From assembly GCF_036206005.1 (NCBI RefSeq), contig NZ_CP108143.1, positions 7,159,501 to 7,223,500 of the forward strand: a stretch of DNA of 64,000 nt. Direction: 5' to 3'. This DNA comes from Streptomyces sp. NBC_00178. Its GTDB lineage: Bacteria; Actinomycetota; Actinomycetes; Streptomycetales; Streptomycetaceae. The notes beneath the pieces were generated by a model. The model saw only the letters and a program-made list of their open reading frames with translations. It was not told the origin of the DNA and did no database searches. Positions within the stretch are counted from its first letter, which is position 1; every line of letters begins with the position of its first letter. Positions 3,679 to 51,759 of this stretch are shown piece after piece. A program made the position numbers and the translations under genes.

Positions 3679-3747
3679 GGCAGCGGATCCTTGGGGGTCG
3701 GAGGTGGGGGAAGGTGGCGTGTGAGGAGTCGTCAGCGGGAGAGGGAA

Positions 3748-3774: not shown

Positions 3775-3829
3775 CCCTCCGGGTCACGTCATGAGCACTG
3801 CGACGGCCCTTCGAGAGTCCTCGGCGTAC

Positions 3830-5101: not shown

Positions 5102-5256
5102 GGTCGGTCTGCGTGATGCTCGCGCCGTCCCCTGGAGGCCGGCGGGCGTGACCGCTCGCGCGGTCCCGGGGAGAGGCCGGCGCGTGTGAACCACCCCAGG
5201 AGTTCGCGTACGTGACGCCAGGGTCGTCCCGGGGCGGGACGCGAACCCGCCCCGCC

Positions 5257-5291
5257 CCGCGTTCCGCGCCAGTTTCCTTGGCGGAACGCGG
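5257..5291. terminator. hairpin downstream of the VOC gene
   Basis: 11-bp inverted repeat CCGCGTTCCGC (5257-5267) and GCGGAACGCGG (5281-5291) around a 13-nt loop, about 155 bp after the VOC stop. Confidence 0.5.
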
Positions 5292-5476
5292 CGTGGCTGC
5301 GCCTCCTTGAACCCGCCGCCGACCAAGTGCGGCGAGATCCACTCCACGCGTGAGCGTCGCTCCGCGCCGTGAGTGGGTGCAGCGAAGTGTCCACCGCCCA
5401 GGGGGCGTTACTTAAATCAAGTCAAAAGAAAAGTCGTGTCGGAGTTATTGACCCTGCCGGGATGGGGCGGCATGGT

Positions 5477-5496
5477 TCGGGAGAGCGCTCTCCCGA
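5477..5496. promoter_or_regulatory. 20-bp perfect palindrome, LacI-family operator candidate
   Basis: TCGGGAGAGCGCTCTCCCGA is a perfect 20-bp palindrome with central CG. That form is common for LacI-family repressors of sugar genes in streptomycetes (CebR-type operators also centre on GAGCGCTC). It overlaps the expected transcription start of the secreted glycan-enzyme gene at 5526, a repressing position. No regulator gene adjoins it. Confidence 0.75.
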
Positions 5497-5525
5497 GCGC
5501 CGTATCCCTACAGGGAGTTCCCCCT

Positions 5526-7721
5526 ATGTCTCTATTTGGCATGCCCCTGGCGACCTGGTCGCCACCCCGTGGGCGCGTGCGCAGCGGCCTCGCGAGTGCG
5601 GTCGTCACCGCGCTGGCCGCGACGCTCCTGGCCGTGGTCCCGGCGTCGGCGGCGCACGCCGCACCGGTGCTGCTGTCCCAGGGGAAGCCGGTCACGGCGT
5701 CCAGTCAGGAGCACTACGGGACCGCGGCGGCCGGGGCCGTCGACGGGGACCTCGGTACCCGCTGGTCGAGTGCCGCGTCCGACGGTCAGTGGCTCCAGGT
5801 GGACCTGGGCAGTCCGGTCCCGCTCAGCCAGGTGGTGCTGCGGTGGGAAGCCGCGTACGCCAAGGCCTACCGGATCGAGCTGTCGACGGACGGCGCCTCC
5901 TGGTCGACGGCCTACGCGACCACGACCGGGGCGGGCGGCACGGAGAGCGTCGCCGTATCAGGCTCCGCCCGCTACGTGCGGATGCAGGGCGTGACGCGAG
6001 CGACCGGATACGGTTACTCACTCTGGGAGTTCCAGGTCTTCGGCGGAGGTGACGGCGGCGGCCCGACCCTGCCCGGGGGCGGCGACCTGGGACCCAACGT
6101 CCACATCATCGACCCCTCCACCCCGGACATCCAGGGCCGGCTGGACCAGGTCTTCGAGCAGCAGGAGTCCGCACAGTTCGGCACCGGCCGCCACGCCTTC
6201 CTGCTCAAGCCGGGCACGTACGACAACCTCAACGCGCAGATCGGCTTCTACACCCAGATCGCCGGACTCGGGCTGCGCCCCGACGACACGACCATCAACG
6301 GTGACGTGACCGTCGACGCGGGCTGGTTCAACGGCAACGCCACGCAGAACTTCTGGCGAGGCGCCGAGAACCTGGCCGTGGCTCCGGTCAGCGGAACCAA
6401 CCGGTGGGCCGTCTCGCAGGCCTCGTCGTTCCGCCGTATGCACGTCAAGGGCGGGCTCAACCTGGCGCCCGACGGATACGGCTGGGCGAGTGGCGGATAC
6501 ATCGCGGACAGCAAGGTCGACGGGCAGGTCGGCAACTACTCGCAGCAGCAGTGGTACACCCGCGACAGTACGATCGGCGGCTGGTCCAACTCCGTCTGGA
6601 ACCAGACCTTCTCAGGCGTCGAGGGCGCGCCGGCCACCGGTTTCCCCGAGCCGCGCTACACCACCCTCGCCACCACCCCGGTCTCCCGTGAGAAGCCGTT
6701 CCTCTATCTGGACGGCGGCGAGTACAAGGTGTTCGCTCCCGCCATGCGGACCAACGCCCGGGGCACGACGTGGGCGAACGGCACCCCTCAGGGGGAGTCG
6801 ATCCCGCTGAGCAGGTTCTACGTCGTCAAGCCGGGTGCCACCGCCGCCACCATCAACCAGGCACTCGCCCAGGGTCTGCACCTGCTGTTCACCCCGGGGA
6901 TCTACCACGTCGACCGGACGATCGACGTCGACCGCGCGAACACGATCGTGCTCGGCCTGGGCCTGGCGACGATCATCCCCGACAACGGAGTGACGGCCAT
7001 GAAGGTCGCCGACGTCGACGGCGTCCGGCTGGCGGGCTTCCTGATCGACGCCGGCCGCGTCAACTCACCCACCCTCCTCGAGGTCGGCCCCCAGGGCGCG
7101 GGCGCGGACCACTCGGCCAACCCCACCACGGTCCAGGACGTCTACGTCCGCATCGGCGGGGCCGGCGCCGGCAAGGCGACCACGAGCGTGGTCGTCAACA
7201 GTGACGACGCCATCATCGACCACACCTGGGTGTGGCGGGCCGACCACGGCGAGGGCGTCGGCTGGGAGACCAACCGCGCCGACTACGGGGTCCGCGTCAA
7301 CGGCGACGACGTACTCGCCACCGGCCTGTTCGTCGAGCACTTCAACAAGTACGACGTCGAATGGTTCGGCGAGCGCGGCCGCACGATCTTCTACCAGAAC
7401 GAGAAGGCGTACGACGCGCCCGACCAGGCCGCCATCCAGAACGGTGCCACGAAGGGCTTCGCCGCCTACCGCGTCGACGACTCCGTCACCACCCACGAGG
7501 CCTGGGGCCTGGGGAGTTACTGCAACTACAACGTCGACCCGGGCATTCGTCAGGACCACGGATTCAAGGCCCCGGTCAAGCCCGGCGTGAAGTTCCACAG
7601 CCTGCTCACCGTCTCCCTGGGCGGCAACGGCCACTACGAGCACGTCATCAACGACACCGGGGCCTCGACCGTGCCCGCCGGCACCTCCACCGTGCCCTCG
7701 ACGGTCGTCTCGTACCCCTGA
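5526..7721 (+). CDS. secreted discoidin (F5/8 C) plus beta-helix carbohydrate-active protein
   Basis: 731 aa. Residues 1-46 hold a long signal peptide ending near ASAAHA. The discoidin/CBM32-like domain spans about 48-178 (LLSQGKPVTASSQE to YSLWEFQVFGGG), followed by a Gly-rich linker. The remaining ~540 aa are a right-handed beta-helix type: NVHIIDPSTPDIQGRLDQVF, a LLKPGTYD turn, a second TPGIYHVDRTIDVDR turn, then NGDDVLATGLFVEHF. Relatives are annotated variously as F5/8 type proteins; GH55- or GH87-like glucanase activity is possible but not established here. ATG 5526 has SD AGGGAG. A second enzyme with the same discoidin domain follows in the same direction; a hairpin separates them. Confidence 0.8.
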   Translation: MSLFGMPLATWSPPRGRVRSGLASAVVTALAATLLAVVPASAAHAAPVLLSQGKPVTASSQEHYGTAAAGAVDGDLGTRWSSAASDGQWLQVDLGSPVPLSQVVLRWEAAYAKAYRIELSTDGASWSTAYATTTGAGGTESVAVSGSARYVRMQGVTRATGYGYSLWEFQVFGGGDGGGPTLPGGGDLGPNVHIIDPSTPDIQGRLDQVFEQQESAQFGTGRHAFLLKPGTYDNLNAQIGFYTQIAGLGLRPDDTTINGDVTVDAGWFNGNATQNFWRGAENLAVAPVSGTNRWAVSQASSFRRMHVKGGLNLAPDGYGWASGGYIADSKVDGQVGNYSQQQWYTRDSTIGGWSNSVWNQTFSGVEGAPATGFPEPRYTTLATTPVSREKPFLYLDGGEYKVFAPAMRTNARGTTWANGTPQGESIPLSRFYVVKPGATAATINQALAQGLHLLFTPGIYHVDRTIDVDRANTIVLGLGLATIIPDNGVTAMKVADVDGVRLAGFLIDAGRVNSPTLLEVGPQGAGADHSANPTTVQDVYVRIGGAGAGKATTSVVVNSDDAIIDHTWVWRADHGEGVGWETNRADYGVRVNGDDVLATGLFVEHFNKYDVEWFGERGRTIFYQNEKAYDAPDQAAIQNGATKGFAAYRVDDSVTTHEAWGLGSYCNYNVDPGIRQDHGFKAPVKPGVKFHSLLTVSLGGNGHYEHVINDTGASTVPAGTSTVPSTVVSYP

Positions 7722-38476: not shown

Positions 38477-39472
38477 GTGACCGCAACCACCTCCCTCGCC
38501 GTCCGCGCCAAGGACCCGGCAGCGCTGCGCCGGCTCCTCACCGCCCCCGCCGCCGGGCCGCTCGCGGCCCTGATCCTCGCCTCGGTCTTCTTCTCCCTCA
38601 GCACCGAACAGTTCCTGTCCGGCGGCAACTTCTCGCTGGTCCTCCAGCAGGTCATGGTCGTCGGAACGCTCGCCATCGGCCAGACACTGATCATCCTCAC
38701 CGCCGGAATCGACCTCTCCTGCGGCGCGGTCATGGCGTTCGGCGGCATCCTCATCGCCAAGACGGCAGTAGAAGGGCCCCTGCCCCCGCTGCTCGCCATC
38801 GCCCTCGGGATCCTGGCCTGCGGTGCGTTCGGTCTGGCCAACGGGCTGCTCGTGCGGGCCGTTCCGCTGCCGCCGTTCATCGTGACGCTGGGCATGCTCA
38901 ACGTGGCCTTCGCCCTGACCCACATCTACTCCGCCGAGGAGACGGTCACCGGCCTGCCGGAACCCCTCACCTTCCTGGGCCGCACCTTCCCCCTCGGCCG
39001 GACCGACGTCACCTACGGGTCGCTGGTCACCATCGCCCTCTTCCTCGGCTTCGCCTACGCCCTGAGCAGCACCGCCTGGGGCCGGCACGTCTACGCACTC
39101 GGCAACAGCTCCGAGAGCGCCCGCCTCAGCGGCATCCGCGTCAACCGGCTCACGGTCGGCGTCTACGCGATCGCCGGACTCGTCTACGGCATCGCGGCCC
39201 TGCTGCTGGTGTCACGGACCGGGGTCGGCGACCCGCAGGCGGGACAGACGGACAACCTCGACAGCATCACGGCCGTCGTCCTCGGCGGTACCAGCCTGTT
39301 CGGCGGGCGCGGGACCGTGCTCGGCACCTTCGTCGGCGTACTCATCGTGGGCATCTTCCGCAACGGCCTCCAGCTGATGGGGGTTTCGTCCGTCTACCAG
39401 ACGCTGGTCACAGGCGTCCTCGTGATCCTGGCGGTCACCGTCGACCAGCTCTCACGAAAGGGGACCCGATGA
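38477..39472 (+). CDS. sugar ABC transporter permease (FrcC/RbsC-like)
   Basis: 331 aa with eight to ten transmembrane helices. BPD_transp_2 family landmarks: VVGTLAIGQTLIILTAGIDL, SCGAVMAFGGI, NGLLVRAVPLPPFIVTLGML and TAVVLGGTSLFGGRGTVLGT. It forms the membrane channel of the importer. GTG start at 38477, 6 bp after the binding-protein stop; the stop TGA overlaps the ATG of the ATPase (ATGA at 39469). Confidence 0.93.
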   Translation: MTATTSLAVRAKDPAALRRLLTAPAAGPLAALILASVFFSLSTEQFLSGGNFSLVLQQVMVVGTLAIGQTLIILTAGIDLSCGAVMAFGGILIAKTAVEGPLPPLLAIALGILACGAFGLANGLLVRAVPLPPFIVTLGMLNVAFALTHIYSAEETVTGLPEPLTFLGRTFPLGRTDVTYGSLVTIALFLGFAYALSSTAWGRHVYALGNSSESARLSGIRVNRLTVGVYAIAGLVYGIAALLLVSRTGVGDPQAGQTDNLDSITAVVLGGTSLFGGRGTVLGTFVGVLIVGIFRNGLQLMGVSSVYQTLVTGVLVILAVTVDQLSRKGTR

Positions 39473-40371
39473 CCGGGCCCGCCTCCCCCCGGAACCCGAG
39501 TGCGGGCGAGCCCGGCGACGTACCCGCCGGCGTGGCAGAGCTCCCGCCGGCGCCCGTGCCCGTGCTCAGCGCCCGCGGCCTGGTCAAGCGCTACGGGCAC
39601 GTCACCGCGATCGACGAGGCGGACTTCGAACTGCTGCCCGGTGAGGTGCTGGCCGTCATCGGCGACAACGGCGCCGGGAAGACGAGTCTGATCAAGGCGC
39701 TCACCGGCGCCTTGGTGCCGGACGCCGGGGAGATCCGGCTGCACGGCAGACCGATCCGGTTCGGCGGTCCGCAGGACGCGCGGGCGCACGGCATCGAGAC
39801 GGTGTACCAGGACCTCGCCGTCGCCGCGTCCATGGACATCACCTCCAACATGTTCCTCGGCCGTGAGATCCGCCGGCCGGGTGCGCTCGGATCGGTCCTG
39901 CGCATGCTCGACAAGAAGGCGATGCGCAAGGAGGCGGCCGCGCACCTGGCCGAACTCAAGGTCGGGGTCGGACAGCTGAGCCAGTCCGTCGAGACCCTGT
40001 CCGGCGGCCAGCGCCAGGCGGTCGCGGTGGCCCGGGCGGCCGCCTGGGCACGCAGCGTCGTCGTGATGGACGAGCCCACGGCCGCCCTGGGCGTCAAGGA
40101 GTCGGGCCAGGTGCTCGACCTCATCCGCCGGGTACGGGACAAGGGCATCCCCGTGATCCTCATCAGCCACAACATGCCGCACGTCTTCGAGATCGCCGAC
40201 CGCATCCACGTGCACCGGCTCGGCAGGCGCGAAGCCGTGATCAAGCCGTCCGACCACTCCATGGCCGAAGTGGTGGCCATCATGACCGGGGCACTCACCG
40301 TGCGTCCGGACGGGGGTACGGTCGTGGCGGACAGTGACGCGGCCTCGGCAGCCGGGGTGCGCGGGAGCTGA
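39469..40371 (+). CDS. sugar ABC transporter ATP-binding protein, single domain (FrcA-like)
   Basis: 300 aa with one nucleotide-binding domain: Walker A GDNGAGKTSLIKAL, signature LSGGQRQAVAVARA, Walker B VVVMDEPTAALG and switch His in LISHNM. Ribose-type importers usually have a fused double ATPase (RbsA); the single-domain form matches the FrcBCA fructose system described in rhizobia, supporting fructose as substrate. A Pro/Ala-rich ~35-aa N-terminal extension precedes the domain. Coupled to the permease by ATGA overlap; 46 bp upstream of the LacI gene. Confidence 0.92.
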   Translation: MTGPASPRNPSAGEPGDVPAGVAELPPAPVPVLSARGLVKRYGHVTAIDEADFELLPGEVLAVIGDNGAGKTSLIKALTGALVPDAGEIRLHGRPIRFGGPQDARAHGIETVYQDLAVAASMDITSNMFLGREIRRPGALGSVLRMLDKKAMRKEAAAHLAELKVGVGQLSQSVETLSGGQRQAVAVARAAAWARSVVVMDEPTAALGVKESGQVLDLIRRVRDKGIPVILISHNMPHVFEIADRIHVHRLGRREAVIKPSDHSMAEVVAIMTGALTVRPDGGTVVADSDAASAAGVRGS

Positions 40372-40417
40372 ATCCGCCCCGGCAGCCGAGGGGACGACTC
40401 CGAGGAAAAGGTGGTTT

Positions 40418-41440
40418 ATGGCATCGGCCCGCAGACCGACACTCGCCGACGTGGCCCGCGAGGTGGGTGTCAGTGCCAAAACGGTCTCCCGGGTCCTCAA
40501 CGAGGACGGCCCCAGCTCCCCGGAGACCAGGAAGCGGGTGCTCGCCGCAGTTGCCAGACTCGGCTTCCAGCCCAACCTGATGGCCAGGAGCATCCGCGTC
40601 GGAGGGCCCGACACCACCGTCGGACTGGTGGTGCCGGACCTCGGCAACCCGTTCTTCGGCGCCGTCGCCGGGGGCATCGAGGAGGCGGTACGCGACCGCG
40701 GGCTGACGCTGCTGATGGGGTCCTCCGCCGACGACCCCGAGCGCGAGCACACGCTGATCCGTACGTTCCTGGCCCGCCGGGTCAGCGTCCTCATGGTGGC
40801 GCCCGCGGTGGGCGCCGACCACGCCCATCTCAAGGCGCACCGGTCGGCGGGCATGCCGGTCATCTTCCTGGACCGGCCGGGCAGCGGCCTGACGGCCGAC
40901 ACGGTCGTCAGTTCCAACCGCTCCGGCACGCGGGAGGGGACCGCCCACCTGATCTCCGGCGGACACCGGCGGATCGGATTCATCGGCGACCTCCCGGCCC
41001 GGCTCTACACCCGCCGCGAGCGCGTCGCCGGATACCGCGCGGCGCTCGCCGACTCGGGCCTGCCCTACGACCGGGCCCTGGTCGCCGACGCCCACGACCC
41101 GGAGGGTGCCGCGCGGGCGACAGCACGGCTGCTCGCCCTGCCGGAGCCACCGACGGCCCTGGTGTCCGGCAACAACGTCATGTCCACCGGCGTACTCACG
41201 GAACTCGCCCGCGGCCGGCGCAGGGACGTCGCGGTCGTCGCGTTCGACGACGTCCCCATGGCCGCCATTCTGGAACCCGGGCTCACCGTCGTGGCACAGA
41301 ACCCCGCGGCAATGGGTGAGGTGGCGGGCGCCGTCGCGGTCGAACGCCTCGACGGCGACCGTTCGCGAGCCCGCACGATCATGGTCGAGACCCGCCTGGT
41401 CCACCGCGGCTCCGGCGAGCTCCCACCGCCACGGAGGTGA
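40418..41440 (+). CDS. LacI-family transcriptional regulator of the fructan/fructose locus
   Basis: 340 aa. N-terminal HTH: PTLADVAREVGVSAKTVSRV plus the hinge LNEDG...RKRVLAAVARLGFQPN. The ligand-binding domain is LacI/RbsR-like (TVGLVVPDLGNPFFGAVAGG, PVIFLDRPG, RRIGFIGDL, VAVVAFDDVP). It should repress in the absence of a fructose-type inducer. Likely targets are the paired TGTCAWCGWTGACA boxes at 36089 and 37364 (inference from proximity and operator form). ATG 40418 with GAGGAAAAGG upstream. Last gene of the importer operon or with its own promoter. Confidence 0.93.
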   Translation: MASARRPTLADVAREVGVSAKTVSRVLNEDGPSSPETRKRVLAAVARLGFQPNLMARSIRVGGPDTTVGLVVPDLGNPFFGAVAGGIEEAVRDRGLTLLMGSSADDPEREHTLIRTFLARRVSVLMVAPAVGADHAHLKAHRSAGMPVIFLDRPGSGLTADTVVSSNRSGTREGTAHLISGGHRRIGFIGDLPARLYTRRERVAGYRAALADSGLPYDRALVADAHDPEGAARATARLLALPEPPTALVSGNNVMSTGVLTELARGRRRDVAVVAFDDVPMAAILEPGLTVVAQNPAAMGEVAGAVAVERLDGDRSRARTIMVETRLVHRGSGELPPPRR

Positions 41441-42982
41441 ACGGGGCGCGCACCGATGCGGGCGGTGACGCGACGTGGGTCCGGAGCACTCGGTCCGACA
41501 CACAGAACGCACCCTCCGAGAACCCGGGCGGCAGCGTGGAGGGGAGCGGAACGCGGACTTTCCCCGCCTGCGCCGCGCTTGCCCCGGTGCCGACCGGCAC
41601 CCCGCTCACCCGCACACGCCCGCACCGCGATGTCACGCCCATCACGACTGCTCAGAGGGCGATTTCACCTGAGGAACGGCACAGCTGACCAGCGTCGTCC
41701 GGCCCCTGCGGGCCACCCGGAATCTCCCTCATGAATCACTCCGGAAGGCCGATCAGGAAGACGTCCTGCGAGCGCGGAACGCGCTCCTCGCGGTGGGCCG
41801 CCGCGTGAGGAAGTGGACGGGCCGAACCGTCCGGAAGCTCCGTGGTGCGAGGACTGGATGTCCAGGCGCCCGGACCCTCCGAGGAAGGCCGGTACTCCGA
41901 AACTGCCGACGCCGAGACCGAGCGTGTCGAAGCGATCCTGCCCGACGGGCCACGAGACGGGACTCCCGCCCGGTCGCTCCTGGAGTGGACAGCCGATCTC
42001 CGTGACGCCGGGACCGGCGAGGCACTCGCCGCGTTCGGAACGCTCGTCCGCAGCGAGGTGTCAGAGGCCGCGAACAACCGCAGGCCGATGGCCTGCCACC
42101 TCCAGCCGCTCATCGGGTACGCACAGATGCTCGACACCTTCGGCCGGGGCGAACCGGCTGCCCTCGCGCGGCATGAGGCACCGGCCGTGCTCGGGAGTGG
42201 GCCGACACGGGTGAGCGGACGTCCCGGGGCGGCTGTCAGCCGTCGTACCGGGCGGCTGCCGGCCCCTCTCCGCTGCCGGTACCGATCGGCCCCGGCCCGG
42301 TGAACCCCGCCCGTCTCGGGCGCGTTGCCCATGGAATGGTCGTCCGACACCAAGCGTCGCTACTTCGAGAGCCGTCACGCCCTCCGCGACGAGGCGGACA
42401 CCCTTGCTTCACCGGCCACCGGCCACCGGAGACCCGGACCGCCACCTGGCCGAACTGGTCCGCCTGCAGCGCGTCCTCACCATCCGCTCCGCCGTGTACC
42501 GGGAGGACCGGACCCACATGTACGCGGAGCGGGTGCGTCCCCTGTCCGACGAGGCAGTCGGACCGGCCCGCCGGGGGGTTCCACCACGACCGGCACGGGG
42601 AACGCGTACGCCGGGCAGAAGCCTGATCGACCGGTCGGCCTTTCACATCGTCGCCCGTGGGCACGGGCCCGCAATCGATGACTTCCGCCGGGCCCTGAGG
42701 CACCTGGGGGAGGACGGCTGAGGCGCCGGCACGCAGGCGGCGGTGGGCGAGGGGCCGCGGGGGAGTCAGGGAGTCCCGCCCCTGTGTCCGGTCGTCGTGT
42801 CCGCCGGGCCGATGACACCGTCCGTCCGGCATGCCGCGCTGCACGTACGGACGGCAGGAGGACGTCGAGCGCCCGTACCGCCGGACATGGTCGCCGACCC
42901 CGTTCCACCTCAGGATGGATCACGGCGCCGACGAGACCGAGGCGCCGGCCCCTTGGGTGAACCGACTGAGCGAGGACGGCGA
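41441..42982. other. 1.54-kb gene-poor region left of the deazapurine cluster
   Basis: Several short open frames exist but none is convincing. The most protein-like are plus-strand 41842-42303 (contains LLEWTADLRDAGTGEALAAF and RRPMACHLQPLIGYAQMLD) and 42404-42721 (contains DRHLAELVRLQRVLTIRSAV). They lack SD sequences and recognisable families. The stretch may be decayed genes at the cluster boundary. SD GAGGA for queC lies at about 42972. Confidence 0.4.
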
Positions 42983-43705
42983 GTGTCGAAGATCATTGCG
43001 GTGGTGTCCGGCGGAATCGACTCCGTCACCATGGCCTATCACCTCCGGGCCCAAGGCCACGAGCTGCACTTGCTGGGGATCGACTACGGCCAGCGCCACC
43101 GGCGCGAACTCGCCTGCGCCCGACTCGCGGCCCGGCGTCTCGGCGCCCCGTACGAGGAGGCCGACCTCTCCGGGGCTCGTGGGGTCCTGCGCGGGTCCTC
43201 CCTCACCGACATGTCCGTCGAGGTCCCGGTCGAGGGCGGCGGCGCCGTCACGGGGACGGAAGGCGACGGCGTCGCCGTCCCGGGCCGCCCCAACATCGTC
43301 CCCAACCGCAATGCCCTGCTGCTCTCGGCGGCATTCGCGCTCGCCGTCGTGGAACGAGCCGAGGCCGTGGCCTTCGGGATCATGGCGGAGGACATCGGCC
43401 CCTCGGACACCTCGCTGGAGTTCCTGGACGCCTTCCTGGCCATGGAACGCATCGCGACACGCGGTCACGCGCACCCAGACCTGAACCTCCTCGCGCCCTT
43501 GGCCCACCTGCGCAAGCGCGAGGTCATCGCGCTCGGCGACCGGCTGTCCGTGCCGTTCGAGGACACCTGGACGTGCTTCCGCGGCGAGGAGCTCCACTGC
43601 GGGCGCTGCGCCTCCTGCACCGAGCGCCGCGGGGCATTCGTCACCGCCGGCGTTCCGGACCCCACCGTCTACGCCGCCGAGGCGGCGGCCGTCGAAGAGG
43701 TGTGA
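42983..43705 (+). CDS. queC: 7-cyano-7-deazaguanine (preQ0) synthase QueC
   Basis: 240 aa, standard QueC length. The PP-loop SGGIDSVTMAYHL binds ATP; GIDYGQRHRRELACA follows as in all QueC. Substrate-loop VPGRPNIVPNRNALLLSAAF is intact. The four zinc cysteines are in TWTCFRGEELHCGRCASCTERR. QueC turns 7-carboxy-7-deazaguanine into preQ0 using ATP and ammonia. GTG start at 42983 with GAGGA 7 nt upstream. First gene of the operon; one base separates its stop from the aminotransferase GTG. Confidence 0.95.
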   Translation: MSKIIAVVSGGIDSVTMAYHLRAQGHELHLLGIDYGQRHRRELACARLAARRLGAPYEEADLSGARGVLRGSSLTDMSVEVPVEGGGAVTGTEGDGVAVPGRPNIVPNRNALLLSAAFALAVVERAEAVAFGIMAEDIGPSDTSLEFLDAFLAMERIATRGHAHPDLNLLAPLAHLRKREVIALGDRLSVPFEDTWTCFRGEELHCGRCASCTERRGAFVTAGVPDPTVYAAEAAAVEEV

Positions 43706-43706
43706 T

Positions 43707-44969
43707 GTGAACGTGTTCGAGGAGCTGGAATCCGAGGTCCGCAGCTACAGCCGGGCGTGGCCCGTGGTCTTCGACCAGGCCCGGGGAAGCTGGCTCCACG
43801 ACGAGGACGGCCGCCGCTATCTGGACTTCTTCACCGGCGCCGGAGCGCTGAACTACGGCCACAACCCGCCCGTCCTGAAGCGCGCGCTGATGGACTATCT
43901 CAGCCGGGACGGCGTCGCTCACTCCCTGGACATGTTCACCGTGGCCCGGAGGCACTTCCTGGAAGCGCTGCGGGAAACGGTTCTCGCTCCCCGCGACCTC
44001 GACTACCGCGTGGTCTTTCCCGGACCGGGCGGGGCGAACGCGGTCGAGGCCGCGCTGAAGCTCGCCCGTCGAGTCACCGGCCGCACCACCGTGGTCAGCT
44101 TCACGAACTCGTTCCACGGCATGACGCTCGGCGCCCTCGCCGTCAGTGGCAACGCGGCCAAGCGCGCCGCCGCCGGAGTCCCGCTCACGCACACGGTCGC
44201 GCTGCCGTACGACGGCTACGGGACCGACGCACCCGAGTTGCTGGACCGCATGATCGGCGATCCCGGCAGCGGCCTGGACAAACCCGCCGCCGTGATCGTG
44301 GAGACGGTCCAGGGCGAGGGCGGGGTGCGCGCGGCCTCGGACGAGTGGTTGCGCTCCCTCGCCGAGGTCTGCCGCCGGCACGCCGTGCTGCTCGTCGTGG
44401 ACGACGTGCAGATGGGCTGCGGCCGCACGGGGCCGTTCTTCAGCTTCGAGGACGCCGGGATCGTCCCGGACATGGTGTGCCTGTCGAAGTCCATCGGCGG
44501 CTATGGCTTTCCCCTGGCGCTGACGCTGATCCGCCCCGAACTCGACGTCTGGAAGCCCGGCGAACACAACGGCACGTTCCGCGGCGTGGGCCCCGCTTTC
44601 GTCACCGGCGCCGCGGCCCTGCGGGCCTACTGGTCGGGCAACGACCTTGAGAAGGCCGTGCGCCGCTCAGGCGAACGCCTCGCATCCGCCCTGGGGGCGA
44701 TCGCCGACAGCCACAGCGCCGCCCGGCTCACCGTCAGCGGCCGGGGTCTCGCCATGGGGCTCGGCTTCCGGGAAGCCCCCGGGGCCGACGGCGGTGATCT
44801 GGCCTCCCGGGTCTCCACAGGGGCGTTCCGCCGGGGACTCCTGGTCGAGACCTCCGGCGCGGACGGCTCCGTCGTCAAACTCCTGCCCCCGCTCACCGTC
44901 ACCGAGAGCGAGCTGGACCAGGGCATCGACATCCTCGCCTCGGCCGTCGACGCGGTCCTGCATCCCTGA
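43707..44969 (+). CDS. class III aminotransferase, EctB-like (diaminobutyrate-forming)
   Basis: 420 aa. The sequence closely follows diaminobutyrate-2-oxoglutarate transaminase: FEELESEVRSYSRAWPVVFD, FFTGAGALNYGHNPPVLKRA, VSFTNSFHGMTLGALAVSGN, VETVQGEGGVRAASDEW and the PLP lysine in VCLSKSIGGYGFPLALTL. EctB makes L-2,4-diaminobutyrate from aspartate semialdehyde and glutamate. ectA and ectC are absent, so this is not ectoine synthesis; inside a preQ0 cluster it probably supplies diaminobutyrate or a similar amine. One change from canonical EctB is FPGPGGANAVEAALK where FPGPTGTNAVEAALK is usual. GTG 43707 with GAAGAGG upstream. Confidence 0.88.
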   Translation: MNVFEELESEVRSYSRAWPVVFDQARGSWLHDEDGRRYLDFFTGAGALNYGHNPPVLKRALMDYLSRDGVAHSLDMFTVARRHFLEALRETVLAPRDLDYRVVFPGPGGANAVEAALKLARRVTGRTTVVSFTNSFHGMTLGALAVSGNAAKRAAAGVPLTHTVALPYDGYGTDAPELLDRMIGDPGSGLDKPAAVIVETVQGEGGVRAASDEWLRSLAEVCRRHAVLLVVDDVQMGCGRTGPFFSFEDAGIVPDMVCLSKSIGGYGFPLALTLIRPELDVWKPGEHNGTFRGVGPAFVTGAAALRAYWSGNDLEKAVRRSGERLASALGAIADSHSAARLTVSGRGLAMGLGFREAPGADGGDLASRVSTGAFRRGLLVETSGADGSVVKLLPPLTVTESELDQGIDILASAVDAVLHP

Positions 44970-44996
44970 ACACGCACCACACGAAAGGAACCTTCC

Positions 44997-45998
44997 ATGG
45001 ATGACGCCATCCCCACCATCGACCTCGGGGCCTGGCGAAGCGCCTCCCCCCAGGAGCGGCGGAGCACCGCGACGGCACTGGACCGGGTGCTCCGCGAGAC
45101 GGGCATGTTCCTCCTGGAGGGCCACGGCGTGCCGAGGGCGGCGATGGACGATCTACGCGCGCGGGGAAAGGAGTTCTTCGCCCTGCCTCACGACGCCAAG
45201 AAGCCGTACGCCGTCGGCGCGTCGTACGAGAGCGGATGGCTGGAGAGACACCCCGGCGGCGGTGTCGGGGTGCCCCGCGAGGAAGGTGTGGAACCGCCCG
45301 CGGCACCCGACCTCCACGAATCCTTCTACGCCGGCCCCGCCCATCGGACGGGCGACGAGGCGGTCGACCGCTACTGCTACCCGTCCAACCGCTGGCCCGA
45401 CCCGGTCCTCCCCGGGCTGCGCCCGGCCGTCGACACGTACACCGATCACATGCAGCGCGTGGCCCACTCCCTCAACGAACTGTTCGCCCAGGTGCTCGGC
45501 CTGCCCGACGACTTCTTCACCCGGCGGGCCACCCGCGCCACCTGGACCCAGAACGTCAGCTGGTACCCGTCGCTCAACACCGTGGGGACGGTGGCGAGCG
45601 GGCAGATGCGCAACGGCCCGCACACCGATCTCGGCACCTTCACGATCCTCAGCCGGCAGCAGGGTGTGGGCGGCCTGCAGGCGTGGAACGAAGCCGAGGG
45701 CTGGTTCGCGCCCCCCTACGGGCCCGACGCGCTGGTGGTGAACCTCGGGGACCTCATGGAGCGGTGGACCGACGGGCGCTGGCGGGCACTGCGCCACCGG
45801 GTACTGGCGCCCAGCCCCAGCGCTCCCGACGAGGAACTGCTGTCCCTCGTGTACTTCTTCGAGTCCGACCCGGACACGCTCGTCGAACCCCTGGCCCCGC
45901 CCGTCGGCGGGGGCGCGGGGATGAAACCCGTCCTCGCCCGCCGGTCGGTGCTGGAGAAGCTCGGCGTACACCTGGACGCCACCCAGTTCCCGGCCTGA
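44997..45998 (+). CDS. IPNS-family Fe(II) oxygenase lacking the usual 2-oxoglutarate Arg
   Basis: 333 aa. DIOX_N at about 5-120 (IPTIDLGAW, LRETGMFLLEGHGVP). The double-stranded beta-helix carries the iron triad His209, Asp211 (GPHTDLGTFTIL) and His267 (LRHRVLAP). In this family the strand after the distal His reads Arg-x-Ser (e.g. RLSLVFF) and that Arg binds the 2-oxoglutarate carboxylate; here it is Leu-Leu-Ser (EELLSLVYFFE). The enzyme may use another anchor, another co-substrate, or none. Product unknown; hydroxylation or oxidative cyclisation of the amino-acid part is plausible. ATG 44997 with GAAAGGAA upstream. Mid-operon. Confidence 0.87.
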   Translation: MDDAIPTIDLGAWRSASPQERRSTATALDRVLRETGMFLLEGHGVPRAAMDDLRARGKEFFALPHDAKKPYAVGASYESGWLERHPGGGVGVPREEGVEPPAAPDLHESFYAGPAHRTGDEAVDRYCYPSNRWPDPVLPGLRPAVDTYTDHMQRVAHSLNELFAQVLGLPDDFFTRRATRATWTQNVSWYPSLNTVGTVASGQMRNGPHTDLGTFTILSRQQGVGGLQAWNEAEGWFAPPYGPDALVVNLGDLMERWTDGRWRALRHRVLAPSPSAPDEELLSLVYFFESDPDTLVEPLAPPVGGGAGMKPVLARRSVLEKLGVHLDATQFPA

Positions 45999-46052
45999 CC
46001 CACCCAGACCGACTCAGGTCCGTATCCGCCGTAGAGAGGCTTCAGCCGCGTC

Positions 46053-46415
46053 ATGACCTTGCACATCACCAAGCGATTCGACTTCTCCGCCAGTCACCGG
46101 CTCGAGGGCCTGCCGGAGAGCCACCAGTGTGCACGTCTGCACGGACACAACTACGCGGTGGAACTCCAACTGAGCGCCGAGCGTTCCGCGCTGACGAGCA
46201 CCGGCTTCGTCCGCGACTACGGCGACCTCTCGGTGTTCAAGAAGTGGCTCGACGACACCCTCGACCACCGTCACCTCAACGACGTCTTCGACGAGAACCC
46301 GACCGCAGAGAACCTCGCCGTCTGGATGTTCGGGCAGTGGGAGAAGGACTTCCCAGAACTGACGGCGGTCCGCGTCTCGGAGACCCCCAAGACCTGGGCG
46401 GAGTACCGGCCCTGA
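46053..46415 (+). CDS. queD: 6-carboxy-5,6,7,8-tetrahydropterin synthase QueD
   Basis: 120 aa, PTPS/QueD family. Zinc His ligands are in FSASHRLEG and LHGHNY; the catalytic Cys is in HQCARLHGHNY; the second half has LDHRHLNDVF and NPTAENLAVWMF, where Glu binds the pterin. QueD converts dihydroneopterin triphosphate, made by FolE, to carboxytetrahydropterin, the QueE substrate. ATG 46053. It lies between the oxygenase and queE on the same strand. Confidence 0.95.
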   Translation: MTLHITKRFDFSASHRLEGLPESHQCARLHGHNYAVELQLSAERSALTSTGFVRDYGDLSVFKKWLDDTLDHRHLNDVFDENPTAENLAVWMFGQWEKDFPELTAVRVSETPKTWAEYRP

Positions 46416-46481
46416 CCTCGGCCCGCCCCCAGCACCCATCACAAACGGCTCATGCCCGACACGAAGAGGAGGTGGTGCCCT

Positions 46482-47200
46482 GTGGAACCGGAACTCGTCG
46501 TCAATGAGATCTTCGGCCCCACTTGACCGTCCAGGGAGAGGGACGGTCGCTCGGCCGCAGGTGCGGCTTCCTGCGGCTCGGCGGCTGCAACCTGTCCTGC
46601 CGCTGGTGCGACACGCCCTACACCTGGGACTGGCAGGGCACCAGCGACAGCGGCGTTCGCTACGACCCCAGGACCGAACTGCACCGGCGATCGGTCGCGT
46701 CGGTCGCCGAGGAACTCCTGGGACTCGGTGTCGACCTCATCGTGATCTCCGGAGGGGAACCCCTGAGCCAGCAGGTGCGCCTGCTGCCCCTGGTCGACAT
46801 CCTCCTCGACGCCGGCATGGAGGTGGAGTTCGAGACCAACGGGACACGCGTCCCCCACGAGCGGCTGGTGCGGCCCGGCCTACGCTTCAACGTCTCGCCG
46901 AAGCTGTCGCACGCCGGCGACCCGGCCGAGCGGCGCATCGTCCCGCAGGCACTGCGACGGTTCGCCGTCACACCGGGGACCACCTTCAAGTTCGTCTGCC
47001 GCACCACCGCGGACCTGGACGAGGTGGCCGCGCTCGTGGCCGACCACGGCATCGACTCGGTGTGGATCATGCCCGAGGGGCAGAGCCCCGACGAAATCAA
47101 CAGACATATGAAGGAAATCGTCTCCTCGGTCATCGACCGGGGATGGAACGTGACCACCCGGCTGCACACGCTGGTCTGGGGACATGAGAGAGGCGTCTGA
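46482..47200 (+). CDS. queE: 7-carboxy-7-deazaguanine synthase QueE, with apparent frameshift
   Basis: Radical-SAM enzyme. The main frame from TTG 46523 reads TVQGEGRSLGRRCGFLRLGG, then CNLSCRWC (Cys-x3-Cys-x2-Cys cluster motif), CDTPYTWDW, GGEPLSQQ, FETNGTR, FNVSPKLSHAGD and TTRLHTLVWG. The conserved N-terminus lies in another frame: GTG 46482 (AGGAGG 11 nt upstream) reads VEPELVVNEIFGPT then TGA at 46524. Adding one C to the CCCC run at 46517-46520, or a -1 slip there, restores VEPELVVNEIFGPHLTVQGE. So this is a mutation, a sequencing error, or programmed slippage. Without the N-terminal strand the enzyme is probably impaired. It rearranges carboxytetrahydropterin to carboxydeazaguanine. 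Coordinates cover both frames. Confidence 0.85.
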
Positions 47201-47201
47201 A

Positions 47202-47786
47202 GTGACCATGAACACCGTCGTACCGCGGACCGGAGCCGAGGAGAGCGGCGCCGACCCGCTCGTGGACCTGGCGCAACGCCTGCTCAAGGAGATCGGGGAG
47301 GACCCCGACCGGGACGGGCTGCGACAGACGCCCGAACGGTTCGCGCGCTGGTGGCGTGAGTTCATCGACTACGATCCCGGAACCATCGACACCCTCTTCG
47401 AGACCACGACCACCAGCCAGATGGTGGTGGTCTCGGACATCCGGGTGTGGTCGCTGTGCGAACACCACCTCCTCCCGTTCAACTGCTCGGTCGACATCGC
47501 GTACCGGCCCACCCACCGGCTCCTCGGCCTGTCGAAGTTCGCCCGGGTGGCCCACCGCCACGCCCACCGCCTCCAGGTGCAGGAGCGGCTGGTCGCCGAC
47601 ATCGCCCAGGAGGTGGCGGACATCACGGAGACCCAGGACGTCGCGGTGATCGCCAAGGGGGAGCACCTCTGCATGACGATGCGCGGCATCAAGGCCAGCG
47701 CCGAGATGACCTCCACCGCGTTCCTCGGAGCGTTCGGCGACGACAGCACCCTGCGCAGCGAACTGTTCGCACTGCTGCGCTCGTGA
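47202..47786 (+). CDS. folE: GTP cyclohydrolase I FolE
   Basis: 194 aa, full-length type I enzyme. Zinc ligands are in WSLCEHHLLPF and GEHLCMTMRG; RYDP-like FIDYDPGTID, GLSKFARVAHRHAHRLQVQE and SAEMTSTAFLGAF are all present. It converts GTP to dihydroneopterin triphosphate, the first step of preQ0 synthesis. A pathway-dedicated copy in a cluster is typical of deazapurine clusters. The GTG at 47202 fits the AGAGAGG SD at 47185-47191; ATG 47184 (overlapping queE) and ATG 47208 are alternatives. Last gene of the first operon, convergent with the LuxR gene. Confidence 0.95.
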   Translation: MTMNTVVPRTGAEESGADPLVDLAQRLLKEIGEDPDRDGLRQTPERFARWWREFIDYDPGTIDTLFETTTTSQMVVVSDIRVWSLCEHHLLPFNCSVDIAYRPTHRLLGLSKFARVAHRHAHRLQVQERLVADIAQEVADITETQDVAVIAKGEHLCMTMRGIKASAEMTSTAFLGAFGDDSTLRSELFALLRS

Positions 47787-47853
47787 GGCGGTAGCCGCCG
47801 CGGCGGCCTGCGACCACCCCTGTCGGGTGCGCCACGGGCCGCCGCTCCGGCCG

Positions 47854-48573
47854 TCACATGTAGCCCTCCCGGATGGCGTATGCGACCGCGTGCGCGCGAT
47901 TGCGCAGGTGCAGGCGGGTCATCGTGTCGTGCAGGACGCCCTTGATGGTGCGCTCGGAGTAACCCAGCTGCTCCGCTATCTCCTTGGTCGCCAGTCCATG
48001 CGCCACCAGTTCCAGCACGTTCAGTTCGCGGCCGGTGGGGCGGCCGGTCGCCACCGTGCTCAGAGCCGTGCCCTGCGCCCGGCGCTCGAGGTGGGTGAGG
48101 AGCCGACGGAGCAGATCCCCCGGCATGTTCCCCTCGTTGCGGGCCGTGGCCTGAATGGCTTTCACCAGTCCGGCGGGCGTGGCCTGATGGCGCCAGACGA
48201 CCGCTGAGATACCTGCCTCGACAACTATGTTCAAGCGGTTCTCATCGAGCTCGTCGACCACCAGCACCACGCGTTTCGCGTGGTCCGAGGTCACCTTGCG
48301 CAATCTGGTGACCGATGGGGCGTCCAGCCGGTCGTCCAGCACCAAGGCCACGCCGCGCGCGGGGCCGTCGGCAGCACGATTCCTGTCCAGGAGCAGGGAT
48401 ATCCCGCGTTGATGGCCTATGTGGGCCATCACACCCGCACGGGTGAGGAGGTCTCCGCCGTACAGCACGACGGGGATGGGAGATGACGACATGTGTGCCT
48501 CGAGATCGATCGGCTCCCGATGCTCAGTGTGAACGGACACATCGGTGCGCAGGGTGGGGTGAGACCGAGACAT
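47854..48573 (-). CDS. LuxR/NarL-type transcriptional regulator
   Basis: 239 aa. A receiver-like N-terminal domain (VVLYGGDLLTRAGVMAHIGH, VALVLDDRLDAPSV, RVVLVVDELDE) lacks a clear acidic pocket and phospho-acceptor Asp, so it may be phosphorylation-independent. The C-terminal LuxR HTH is TGRELNVLELVAHGLATKEI, AEQLGYSERTIKGVLHDTMT. Start at ATG 48573 (AAAGGA 6-11 nt upstream); ATG 48492 with GAGG is an alternative. It lies between the two halves of the cluster and reads towards folE, so it is the likely pathway-specific regulator. Confidence 0.88.
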   Translation of the reverse strand: MSRSHPTLRTDVSVHTEHREPIDLEAHMSSSPIPVVLYGGDLLTRAGVMAHIGHQRGISLLLDRNRAADGPARGVALVLDDRLDAPSVTRLRKVTSDHAKRVVLVVDELDENRLNIVVEAGISAVVWRHQATPAGLVKAIQATARNEGNMPGDLLRRLLTHLERRAQGTALSTVATGRPTGRELNVLELVAHGLATKEIAEQLGYSERTIKGVLHDTMTRLHLRNRAHAVAYAIREGYM

Positions 48574-48836
48574 TTTCGTCCTTTGCTGGCAAGCATGCGG
48601 TGAAGCCCCCGTACTGACCGGAGATCGTAATTCCTGGAAGCCCTTCCACCGGAGAGTGAGACCTCGCCGCCACGCCATGTTGGCGCGAAATACGTGTGTG
48701 TGGCCGAAAGTAGCTGACGCTGCTTGCGTGCGATGGGGGAGTGCGTATTACTGCTTGAACCTGTGTAGTGAAGAACATGTGAAGGCGTCAGGTGTCAAGG
48801 AGTCGCACATCTTGCGAGCTTCGGGCGTACCAGGCA

Positions 48837-48920
48837 TCAAATCCACGGCTGGTGCGCAAACGGGTGCAGTGAGCACGAGCAGTGCGACTCAGCTGACTGC
48901 TGGGCAGACAGCGTTGTCAT
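48837..48920 (-). CDS. candidate 27-aa peptide ORF
   Basis: Minus-strand ATG at 48920 to TGA at 48837 encodes MTTLSAQQSAESHCSCSLHP plus FAHQPWI. Its features are a polar first half, a Cys-Ser-Cys pair and an aromatic end. The upstream AAGAGACGG is a weak SD. It may be a leader peptide, a precursor peptide, or chance; codon use is not strongly Streptomyces-like. Reported only because it sits inside the control region of a cluster with an ATP-grasp ligase. Confidence 0.2.
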   Translation of the reverse strand: MTTLSAQQSAESHCSCSLHPFAHQPWI

Positions 48921-48988
48921 GGCCGTCTCTTGCTCGTTCACCGTCGCAATCAAGACAGCTCGCGATGACACACTCGCCGGATCCGTGA

Positions 48989-49012
48989 CCGCAGTGCAGT
49001 TACGTGACTGCG
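48989..49012. promoter_or_regulatory. nested inverted repeats upstream of the ATP-grasp gene
   Basis: CCGCAGT (48989-48995) pairs with ACTGCGG (49006-49012), and inside it GCAGTTACGTGACTGC (48996-49011) is a 16-bp dyad with one mismatched pair. About 230 bp before the ATP-grasp start. A plausible binding site for the LuxR-type regulator. Confidence 0.45.
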
Positions 49013-49241
49013 GGTATGGCCCTGCGGCAACGTGACCGCGGACTCGGACCCGCGGAAGAGGCGATCCAGTCCCAGCGTCGTACCGACCGGGCGGGCCATC
49101 TGCACCTTCGGCCGTCCAGCCGCCCGTCGGAACGGTCTGGACGTACATGTCCCCGCCGCCCGACCGGCCTGAACAATGACGGACAGCACGCCCCCGGCCC
49201 GCGGTACCCCCGGCAGGCCACACCTCAAGGAGAGACGGCAC

Positions 49242-50516
49242 ATGACCACCAGCCCACCCGCGGTAATCCTTGTGGATCCGGTGCGGCAGCACGGGAAGCC
49301 CTTCAAGACCGCTGTCCGTGAACTCGGTTACTCCGTCGTCTCCCTGTACACCAACGAATTCCTCGCCTCCCCGGACGGCCACGCCGACGGCGACGACCTG
49401 TCCTTCTACTCCGCTGACCCGCTGGAGGCCGAGCGACTCATCACCGCCTCGGGCGTCGACGCACGGGCGGTGGTTCCCTGCCTGGAACCCGCGGTGCACC
49501 TGACCGACGTGCTGGCTCACCGGCTCGGTCTGCCCGGCAACGACCACACCCTCGCCCGCGCGCGACGGGACAAGTCGGTGATGCGGGCACACGCCGCCGA
49601 CGCCGGTGTCCGGATCCCGGAGTTCCGACTCGTCCACTCGGCCGACGACATAGCGGCGGCGGCCCGCGAGGTGGGATTCCCGGTCATCGTCAAACCCACG
49701 ATGGGCGCCGGCTCCCAGGGTGTGTGTGTCTACTCCACCGCCGCCGACCTGGAGGGGCGGGAGCCACCGGCCGCCCACGACATCTACCACGAGCCCGTAC
49801 GCGCCTGGCTCGTCGAACGCTACGTGCGAGGACGGGAGTTCGCAGTCAACTTCTTCAGTGCGGACGGTGAGCACCGGTTCGTCGACATGTGGGAGTACCG
49901 TCGTCCGGACGACTCAGACTACGACTTCCCCCTCTGGGACATCGTCCAGGCCGGACCCGACCACGCCGACCGCGCACGCGTGGAGGAGTACACCCGCAGC
50001 GTCCTGGACGCGTTCGGCATCCGGCGGGGCCCCAGCCACACGGAGGTCAAGTGCACCCCCGACGGCGTCTATCTGATCGAGGTAGGAGCCCGGCTCTCGG
50101 GCGGCCCGGCCGTCGACCTGTGGACCGCCCACGGCGGGCTGCGCCCCTTCCACGACACGATCGCCTGCTACCTCGGGCAGCGGCCGGCCCTGTTCGACCG
50201 GCCGGCCGGCTTCCCGGTCCGCCTCGGCTCGGTCGTCGTGCACAACGAGCAAGGCCCGGGCACCCTCGTCGCAGTTCACGGAGCCGAGCAGGCCGCCGCC
50301 CTCCCCGGGGTGGACAACGTCGAACTCGGCTATGCGCCCGGCGAGTACGTCCCGGCGACCAACGACAACGTCAGTATTCCCTTCAGCGCCACCGTCCACG
50401 GAGCCGACCCCGAAGCCGTCCTCGCCACCCTGGCCGCCATCAGGTCCCTGGTGCGGGTGGAGACGCGGCCGGACCTGCCCCAGCACGTCACCGACGTGAC
50501 CACGGCAGCCCACTGA
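49242..50516 (+). CDS. ATP-grasp carboxylate-amine ligase
   Basis: 424 aa. N-terminal Rossmann-like part (AVILVDPVRQHGKPFKTAVR), central domain and ATP-grasp core: RRDKSVMRAHAADAGVRIPE, GFPVIVKPTMGAGSQGVCVY, VERYVRGREFAVNFF and the metal-binding HTEVKCTPDGVYLIEVGARL. The pattern is that of L-amino-acid ligases/carnosine-synthase-like enzymes, which form amide bonds through acyl phosphates. In this cluster it could join carboxydeazaguanine or an amino acid to a diaminobutyrate-type amine (inference). ATG 49242 with AAGGAG (49228-49233). One base separates it from the MFS gene. Confidence 0.9.
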   Translation: MTTSPPAVILVDPVRQHGKPFKTAVRELGYSVVSLYTNEFLASPDGHADGDDLSFYSADPLEAERLITASGVDARAVVPCLEPAVHLTDVLAHRLGLPGNDHTLARARRDKSVMRAHAADAGVRIPEFRLVHSADDIAAAAREVGFPVIVKPTMGAGSQGVCVYSTAADLEGREPPAAHDIYHEPVRAWLVERYVRGREFAVNFFSADGEHRFVDMWEYRRPDDSDYDFPLWDIVQAGPDHADRARVEEYTRSVLDAFGIRRGPSHTEVKCTPDGVYLIEVGARLSGGPAVDLWTAHGGLRPFHDTIACYLGQRPALFDRPAGFPVRLGSVVVHNEQGPGTLVAVHGAEQAAALPGVDNVELGYAPGEYVPATNDNVSIPFSATVHGADPEAVLATLAAIRSLVRVETRPDLPQHVTDVTTAAH

Positions 50517-50517
50517 C

Positions 50518-51759
50518 ATGCCGGACCCGCAGTCTCCCGAGCAGCCGGCGACCGGAGACGCCCCTCCACGGCCCACCGACGGGCCCCTCGCCGCCTACCG
50601 GGACGTACTGGCCGTACCCGGCGCCAAGAGGCTGGCCACGGCCAGCCTCGTGGCCAAGTGGCCCATCAGCATGTTCCCCGTCAGCGTGCTCCTGCTCGTC
50701 CCGCCCCGCTACTCCTACGGCCAGGCCGGCGCCGTAGTCGCCGCCGTGCTCCTCGCCAACGCGATCAGCAGCCCGATCCGCGGTCGGCAGGCTGCGCGAC
50801 ACGGAGCACACCGGGTACTGCGGATCTGTCTGGCCGGCTACGTGACCGGCATCGCCGGGATCGGCGCCCTGGCCGCCTTCACCGCCCCGCTCCCGTTCGT
50901 CCTGGCCGCAGCGCTGCTGATGGGCTCGTTCTTTCCACCGGCAGGCATCCTTCTGCGGTCCCACTGGACCGTGGTGGACCGTGAGCGAGGACGGGCCTCG
51001 GCCAACGCCCTGGAATCAGCCCTGATGGATCTGTCGCTGATCACCGGTCCCGTACTGGCCGGCTGGCTCAGTACCTCCTTCGCGCCCGTGCTGCCTCTCG
51101 CGCTGAACGCCGTACTGATGACGCTCGCGGTCGTCCTGCTCACCAAGCTGCCAGACTGGGCGGCGGCGCCACCCGGTCCTGCCGAGGGACGGCACCGAAG
51201 TGTCCTGAACGCTCCGCTGTATCGCTTGTTCGGTGCTCAGTTCCTGTTCTGTGCAGCTCTGGCCGCCACCGAGGTGTCGTTGCCCGTCTACGCCCAGCAG
51301 CAGCACGCGGCCTCCGCCAGCGGCTGGTTCCTGGCCGGGCTCTCGGCCGGCAGCATCATCGGCACGCTGGCCCTCGGCAGGCTGCGCAGCGCCCGGGCCA
51401 CCCGCCTCCCGACCCTGCTCGTACTGCTGGCCGCAGGGACGAGCGGGATCGGGGCGGCCATGTTGTTGGGCCCGTTCGCGGTGGCTCTCGTCTGCATCCC
51501 GGCGGGCCTCGCCATCGGTTCGGTCTTCGCGAGCTACTTCACCGTCCTCGGTTCGGTGACGCCCCCTGGCACGGACCATGAGGTCCAGGGCTGGGCCAAC
51601 AGCATGAACACGGTCGGCTTCGCGACGGGATCCTTCGGAGGGGCTGCACTGGCAGAGGCGTTCGGCGCCTCCGCCCTCCTGCTCTCCGCCCCGGCCGCGG
51701 CCGTCGCGGCGTCGGCTCTCGCGGCCCGGTCGAGCAGGACCGGGCGAACCGACTCGTAG
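50518..51759 (+). CDS. MFS transporter, probable product exporter
   Basis: 413 aa with 11-12 hydrophobic helices, for example ISMFPVSVLLLVPP, AGAVVAAVLLANAIS, LAGYVTGIAGIGALAAF, LPLALNAVLMTLAVVLL, AALAATEVSLPVYA and LLSAPAAAVAASALAA. A GRQAARHGAHRVLR basic loop after helix 2 fits the MFS motif A position. Directly behind the ATP-grasp gene (ATG 50518, 1-bp gap), so the pair is an operon. It likely exports the cluster's product and gives self-resistance. Confidence 0.9.
   Translation: MPDPQSPEQPATGDAPPRPTDGPLAAYRDVLAVPGAKRLATASLVAKWPISMFPVSVLLLVPPRYSYGQAGAVVAAVLLANAISSPIRGRQAARHGAHRVLRICLAGYVTGIAGIGALAAFTAPLPFVLAAALLMGSFFPPAGILLRSHWTVVDRERGRASANALESALMDLSLITGPVLAGWLSTSFAPVLPLALNAVLMTLAVVLLTKLPDWAAAPPGPAEGRHRSVLNAPLYRLFGAQFLFCAALAATEVSLPVYAQQQHAASASGWFLAGLSAGSIIGTLALGRLRSARATRLPTLLVLLAAGTSGIGAAMLLGPFAVALVCIPAGLAIGSVFASYFTVLGSVTPPGTDHEVQGWANSMNTVGFATGSFGGAALAEAFGASALLLSAPAAAVAASALAARSSRTGRTDS

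Follow-up and report, generated by a model that had tools for sequence, protein, structure and literature searches.

In the isopenicillin N synthase (IPNS) subfamily of Fe(II) oxygenases, the arginine of the RxS motif is the textbook signature of 2-oxoglutarate (2OG) use. IPNS itself and ACC oxidase work without 2OG, yet both keep this arginine for the carboxylate of their substrate. In FIH and the JmjC enzymes, the C5 end of 2OG is bound by a lysine from another strand. Thymine-7-hydroxylase (T7H) of Neurospora crassa (PDB 5c3p-5c3s) is, level with TraH, the best structural match discussed below. According to the accessible part of its published report, Tyr194, Arg286, and Ser288 bind the C5-carboxylate of 2OG, Arg190 binds the C1-carboxylate, and Leu223 touches the co-substrate (PMC4787775). 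The same text describes a drastic loss of activity when Arg190 is replaced by lysine or alanine and a moderate drop when Arg286, Ser288, or another residue in contact with 2OG is mutated; it adds that the arginine serving the C1 end comes from different structural elements in T7H and TET2 (PMC4787775). In TraH, as far as the available part of that paper describes it, 2OG is bound by R280 and Y195, and K191 is conserved (PMC13083874).

The window analyzed here, a stretch of 64,000 nucleotides from Streptomyces sp. NBC_00178 (contig NZ_CP108143.1), encodes an oxygenase of this kind in which a leucine occupies the position of the RxS arginine. Below, Leu type and Arg type refer to the residue at this position, numbered 281. 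The gene and the residues discussed are as follows.

44997-45998, plus strand: IPNS-fold Fe(II) oxygenase of the Leu281 type, 333 aa (from the ORF, Pfam, the predicted model, and fold matches)
45552-45554, plus strand: Asn186, aligned with T7H Arg190, which binds the 2OG C1-carboxylate (Leu type N66 Q4 Y3 T3; Arg type R26 K6 C1)
45564-45566, plus strand: Tyr190, equivalent of T7H Tyr194, which binds the 2OG C5-carboxylate (76/76 Leu type, 33/33 Arg type)
45621-45623, plus strand: His209, iron ligand 1 (invariant in 62 aligned sequences)
45627-45629, plus strand: Asp211, iron ligand 2 (invariant in the same 62)
45654-45656, plus strand: Arg220, which may be the relocated anchor; it directly follows the predicted strand 215-219 (76/76 Leu type, 0/33 cellular Arg type, 24/43 distinct viral sequences)
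45792-45794, plus strand: Arg266, candidate basic residue before the third iron ligand (R73 K3 in the Leu type; of 33 Arg-type sequences, two have R and two K)
45795-45797, plus strand: His267, iron ligand 3 (invariant in the same 62)
45831-45833, plus strand: Glu279, clade-invariant, possible partner of Arg220 (76/76 Leu type, 5/33 Arg type)
45837-45839, plus strand: Leu281 (CTG), standing where the motif RxS has its arginine (76 Leu to 33 Arg and no third state among 109 cellular sequences)
45843-45845, plus strand: Ser283, the RxS serine, kept (76/76 Leu type; S31 T2 in the Arg type)

By its domains, its double-stranded beta-helix (DSBH) fold, and its HxD...H triad, the product is a member of the IPNS subfamily of Fe(II)/2OG oxygenases. 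The Pfam domains DIOX_N (2.6e-18) and 2OG-FeII_Oxy (5e-13) both score over their cut-offs, and the alignment to the latter stops at residue 274, before the RxS motif is reached. The iron triad, described as intact in the preliminary description, is found at the positions given there. We used a predicted model built with 33 sequences (pLDDT 81.5, pTM 0.84); an earlier model from five sequences was poor (pLDDT 57.6) and was set aside. Compared with solved structures by VIA-align, the model matches T7H best (Z 33.0, rmsd 3.0, 302 aligned residues, about 21% identity), tied with TraH (Z 32.2). Among the matches listed, 50 entries range from Z 28.4 to 33.0, and all belong to the IPNS subfamily by title. 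Foldseek ranks 9ovh, an ancestral ethylene-forming enzyme, first, and the profile match to T7H reaches 3.5e-52. In four comparisons the gene is under purifying selection, with dN/dS about 0.24 to 0.34.

The local motif reads A-P-D-E-E-L281-L-S283 (E279-E280-L281-L282-S283). Alignments to the solved relatives 6jyv and 9ovh set Leu281 under the arginine of R-x-S, which bears out the reading of this motif as Leu-Leu-Ser. A change from CGG or CGC to CTG had been proposed as sufficient: a single base change is enough from CGG, and two are needed from CGC. CTG is also the codon in the four clade members compared at this level (G005, L002, L005, and G297). With leucine in 76 sequences and the same codon in these four, a private mutation or a sequencing error can be ruled out. 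The alignment with orthologues that the preliminary description had called for places leucine in 76/76 sequences of one clade and arginine only in relatives outside it.

This clade is large. E-E-L-x-S is present in all 33 relatives that are 45 to 79% identical. A scan of the genus gave matches at E 1e-40 or better in 171 of 392 sampled genomes, one of the class at 1e-30 in 61 of 394, and one of the phylum at 1e-20 in 26 of 396, the Streptomyces sp. NBC_00178 genome being included each time and holding one clade member at the thresholds used; the plasmid scan returned 187 records at 1e-10. Sequences read at the 1e-40 strength are of the Leu type, the residue having been read, among the 171 genomes of the genus, in those made into loci. 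The alignment comprises 109 cellular sequences, including that of the window, after one short match (L122) was dropped. One of these, L068, was blank at the key columns of the first alignment and is absent from the 62-row set; it is counted among the 109 as Arg type. Scores against a Leu-type profile leave a gap between the two types, at least 346 bits for Leu and at most 219 bits for Arg. Percent identity to the window gives no clean split: the Arg-type L124 has 39% identity over its match, as do some Leu-type rows. In a tree of 56 of the 109 sequences, computed with columns 186, 220, 266, 279, 280, and 281 left out, the Leu type forms one clade (support 100/99), requiring one change. Judging from these alignments, Leu281 is common to a large actinobacterial clade and not a stray mutation. 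Two plasmid-borne members have a public annotation, "2-oxoglutarate and iron-dependent oxygenase domain-containing protein." On a Rhodococcus qingshengii plasmid (L103, positions 3416-6957), genes for a nucleobase:cation symporter, an Arg-type oxygenase, and a Leu-type oxygenase lie in a row.

A second change, absent from the preliminary description, concerns the other end of 2OG. In the profile alignment, T7H Tyr194, Arg286, Ser288, and Arg190 map to Tyr190, Leu281, Ser283, and Asn186. As aligned, both carboxylate-binding arginines are gone in the Leu clade, including the one that T7H needs most, and the tyrosine and serine are kept. Set against canonical 2OG-dependent members, the clade thus lacks the arginine for the C5-carboxylate and retains the RxS serine and the tyrosine of the YP motif in every sequence. 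Leu218 and Phe287, equivalents of T7H Leu223 and Phe292, are likewise found in 76/76 Leu-type sequences.

Arg220 is a possible case of what the preliminary description had named as a refutation of its reading, another arginine or lysine in the same place. It follows a predicted strand, 215-219, and residue 281 opens another, 281-289; we take these to be DSBH strands III and VIII, side by side. The equivalent of T7H Leu223, the 2OG contact, stands two residues before position 220. Other basic residues are candidates as well. Arg54 is found in 76/76 Leu-type and 1/33 Arg-type sequences and Arg205 in 76/76 and 10/33; either of these, or Arg/Lys266, could be the true substitute or could bind the substrate. 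Glu279 may simply pair with Arg220 and neutralize it.

Phage and viral relatives, 60 kept matches reduced to 43 distinct sequences with two that ended too early dropped, provide an outside comparison; a viral scan using the window protein itself as query gave no match, and two of the DNA patterns gave none either. Of the 24 distinct viral sequences with Arg220, 21 also have Arg281, and Arg220 therefore serves another purpose there. Going by these sequences, Arg220 is independent of the loss of Arg281. The three viral sequences that lack Arg281 (L140 with Ser, L146 and L161 with Cys) all have Arg220. The combination of Arg220 and Arg281 may represent an in-between state, in the order of events that a relocation of the anchor needs. 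This phage evidence is weak, because Arg220 is already the background in 24/43 sequences, on which all three losses fall, and because position 220 is a gap in the alignment for 13 of the 19 sequences without Arg220.

The oxygenase gene lies within a cassette whose other genes are the following.

42743-43705, plus strand: QueC-like 7-cyano-7-deazaguanine synthase (PF06508 8.7e-43 from ORF residue 83; TIGR00364 130.6 bits, under the cut-off of 150.3)
43707-44969, plus strand: EctB-like diaminobutyrate-2-oxoglutarate transaminase (TIGR02407 605.4 bits, cut-off 552.2)
46053-46415, plus strand: QueD-like 6-carboxytetrahydropterin synthase (TIGR03367 90.8 bits, cut-off 89.25)
46523-47200, plus strand: QueE-like radical SAM enzyme (PF04055 9e-12; best TIGR03365 75.7 bits, under the cut-off of 206.1)
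47184-47786, plus strand: FolE GTP cyclohydrolase I (PF01227 5.4e-55; NF006826 176.7 bits, cut-off 162)
47854-48678, minus strand: LuxR-type regulator (GerE 1.5e-12; relatives at 41 to 70% at the other five cassette loci)
49176-50516, plus strand: ATP-grasp ligase with an L-amino acid ligase C-terminal domain (PF13535, PF18603; relatives at 45 to 77% at the other five loci)
50518-51759, plus strand: MFS transporter (PF07690; at 4/6 loci, one only 33% identical)

QueC, EctB, the oxygenase, QueD, QueE, FolE, the LuxR-type regulator, and the ATP-grasp ligase occur together at all six loci of the subgroup, namely the window, G005, G080, G297, Kitasatospora sp. GAS204B, and Streptomyces sp. NBC_01306. 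Within the preQ0 gene set, QueC, QueD, and FolE are assigned to their families by Pfam and QueE there only as a radical SAM protein; FolE and QueD pass the NCBIfam cut-offs. As QueE and QueC score under theirs, their step-by-step functions are putative, and the true start of the QueC-like ORF is probably further in. Two EctB proteins in the genome, including that of the cassette, pass the TIGR02407 cut-off, and with another copy elsewhere the cassette EctB is probably dedicated. The gene content points to a likely scheme in which GTP is converted to preQ0 or 7-carboxy-7-deazaguanine and aspartate semialdehyde to diaminobutyrate, followed by oxidation by the oxygenase, ligation, and export. A literature search for preQ0/7-deazaguanine and diaminobutyrate clusters in Streptomyces found none with the words tried, and PMC11888242 mentions neither diaminobutyrate nor isopenicillin. 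Just upstream of the cassette, at 38477-41440, lie genes for sugar-type ABC permease and ATPase proteins and one for a LacI-type regulator. ATPase- or LacI-like genes (37 to 41% identical) are also found near the cassette at L036 and L037, and none matched at L035 and L002.

Other members of the clade are found in different gene settings. In the tree, a sister group comprises L003, L004, L009 (context L038), and L010 (context L039). Genes that lie no more than about 10 kb from them encode a GT2 glycosyltransferase (4/4), a 3-dehydroquinate-synthase-like cyclase (3/4, not L038), a nucleotidyltransferase (3/4, not L003), and a VOC protein (2/4, L004 and L039). This setting resembles cyclitol-type clusters such as that of VldW, which Almabruk et al. 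are said to have described in 2012 as a 2OG-dependent enzyme that hydroxylates validamycin A. The likeness is one of cluster setting, and VldW is possibly a clade member, as a lead only. In validamycin-type clusters, so far as the accessible text of the sources goes, ValG is a glucosyltransferase (PMC12041759), ValD a large VOC protein (named so in a reference title in PMC3424136), and VldB a cyclitol nucleotidyltransferase (PMC9200736). VldW is named in neither PMC12041759 nor PMC9200736, and PMC3424136 mentions neither a dioxygenase nor ketoglutarate. In more distant Streptomyces members, a deaminase-like gene often adjoins the oxygenase gene. A gene like that of yeast cytosine deaminase is found at 23/65 Leu-type loci with flanks versus 0/22 Arg-type loci, a count that leaves aside eleven of the 76 Leu-type loci and the other Arg-type loci, those without long flanks. 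In the widespread group, a deaminase-like gene stands beside the Leu-type oxygenase gene at six of nine long loci (L040, L042, L044, L045, L047, and L048); the family assignment covers L040 and L048 only, and the likeness to yeast cytosine deaminase the L040 neighbor. A nucleobase substrate for the whole clade would fit the preQ0 cluster and misfit the cyclitol-type clusters, and we do not claim it.

How an enzyme of this clade could manage its co-substrate is best explained, with about an even chance of being right, by a relocated anchor: Arg220 would replace Arg281, and 2OG would still be used. From the end of the strand next to that of Leu281, the side chain of Arg220 would reach into the space left by Arg281 and, together with Tyr190 and Ser283, hold the 2OG C5-carboxylate, with Asn186 covering the C1 end. 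The enzyme would stay a 2OG-dependent hydroxylase or desaturase. It would act on the diaminobutyrate unit, for which EctB would be dedicated, or on the 7-deazaguanine/preQ0 core, either ahead of the joining step by the ATP-grasp ligase or following it. The alignments argue for this relocation by the pairing of Leu281 with Arg220 in all 76 Leu-type sequences and the absence of Arg220 from all 33 cellular Arg-type ones, and the sister genes in a VldW-like setting, VldW reportedly being 2OG-dependent, point the same way by analogy. Against it, by analogy with T7H, the counterpart of Arg190, the residue whose loss is the drastic one in T7H, is missing here without an obvious replacement. A further alternative is that Tyr190, Ser283, and the iron, along with contacts to the main chain, hold 2OG in the usual way and no arginine acts as a substitute. 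The retained tyrosine and serine would suit this, as would the moderate effect, in the accessible text, of mutating T7H Arg286, Ser288, and other contacts (PMC4787775). It would leave a buried carboxylate uncompensated and would not explain why every clade member has Arg220 while none of the 33 cellular Arg-type relatives does, and we rate it as distinctly unlikely. Given the retained Tyr190 and Ser283 and the invariance of Arg220, we favor relocation with 2OG retained both over this reading and over one free of 2OG.

That the clade no longer uses 2OG, and relies on another co-substrate, on electrons of the substrate as IPNS does, or on ascorbate as ACC oxidase does, we consider unlikely. Both cationic 2OG contacts known from T7H are absent, the Arg190 mutants of T7H being drastically impaired in the accessible text (PMC4787775), and the changes are common to the clade in several contexts (preQ0 cassette, cyclitol-type clusters, cytosine deaminase neighbors, nucleobase symporter). 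However, the invariant Tyr190 and Ser283 are hard to explain without a bound carboxylate, IPNS and ACC oxidase retain the arginine, and VldW, possibly in the clade, is reported to be 2OG-dependent. In its boldest form, this alternative would describe a clade without any 2OG use that lost both arginines, gained Arg220, Glu279, and Arg266, and activates O2 through another co-substrate or a four-electron oxidation of the substrate, here perhaps as an oxidase-type reaction on the diaminobutyrate or 7-deazaguanine unit; this we hold to be improbable. The different co-substrate or mode proposed in the preliminary description is upheld in part: the altered mode gains from the leucine in every sequence of one clade and from the second missing arginine, but another co-substrate is unlikely, and retention of 2OG is favored. 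A degenerate, inactive oxygenase could be read from the replacement of two normally conserved active-site residues. Because the triad is intact and dN/dS is in the range given above, a dead enzyme is very improbable, and the conservation across the clade and the place in the cassette kept at 6/6 loci also speak against it. To return to the relocated anchor, the chances are evenly poised that the product of 44997-45998, in this reading a working Fe(II) oxygenase, has a rebuilt cationic grip on its co-substrate.

Compared with known systems, the cassette resembles the preQ0 clusters of toyocamycin, tubercidin, and the like in having FolE, QueD, QueE, and QueC homologs side by side. It differs from them by the addition of EctB, the oxygenase, and the L-amino acid ligase-like ATP-grasp enzyme, and as a preQ0-diaminobutyrate cassette (42743-51759) it is an uncharacterized biosynthetic lead. 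In the titles and opening lines of abstracts returned by a literature search for IPNS-family enzymes without the arginine or without 2OG, we found no description of the Leu281 clade. IPNS and ACC oxidase share the family and the fold, but the parallel drawn with them in the preliminary description is weak: both dropped 2OG while keeping the RxS arginine, the opposite of the change to Leu281. If true, a clade independent of 2OG would form a new branch beside them, and a relocated anchor would, if true, correct function calls based on the motif. Together with TraH (9ig3-9ig5), 9ovh and 6jyv, the latter from Pseudomonas aeruginosa, have the same fold and are among the best solved sequence matches; 9ovh and 6jyv have an arginine at the aligned RxS position where the window enzyme has Leu281, and K191 of TraH aligns with Asn186. 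With T7H, the window enzyme has in common the iron triad and the tyrosine, serine, leucine, and stacking phenylalanine of the pocket. T7H grips 2OG by Arg190 and Arg286, whereas the window enzyme has Asn186 and Leu281 instead. A clade without both arginines but with the tyrosine and serine offers a direct test of how far, and in what order, a co-substrate site can be rebuilt.
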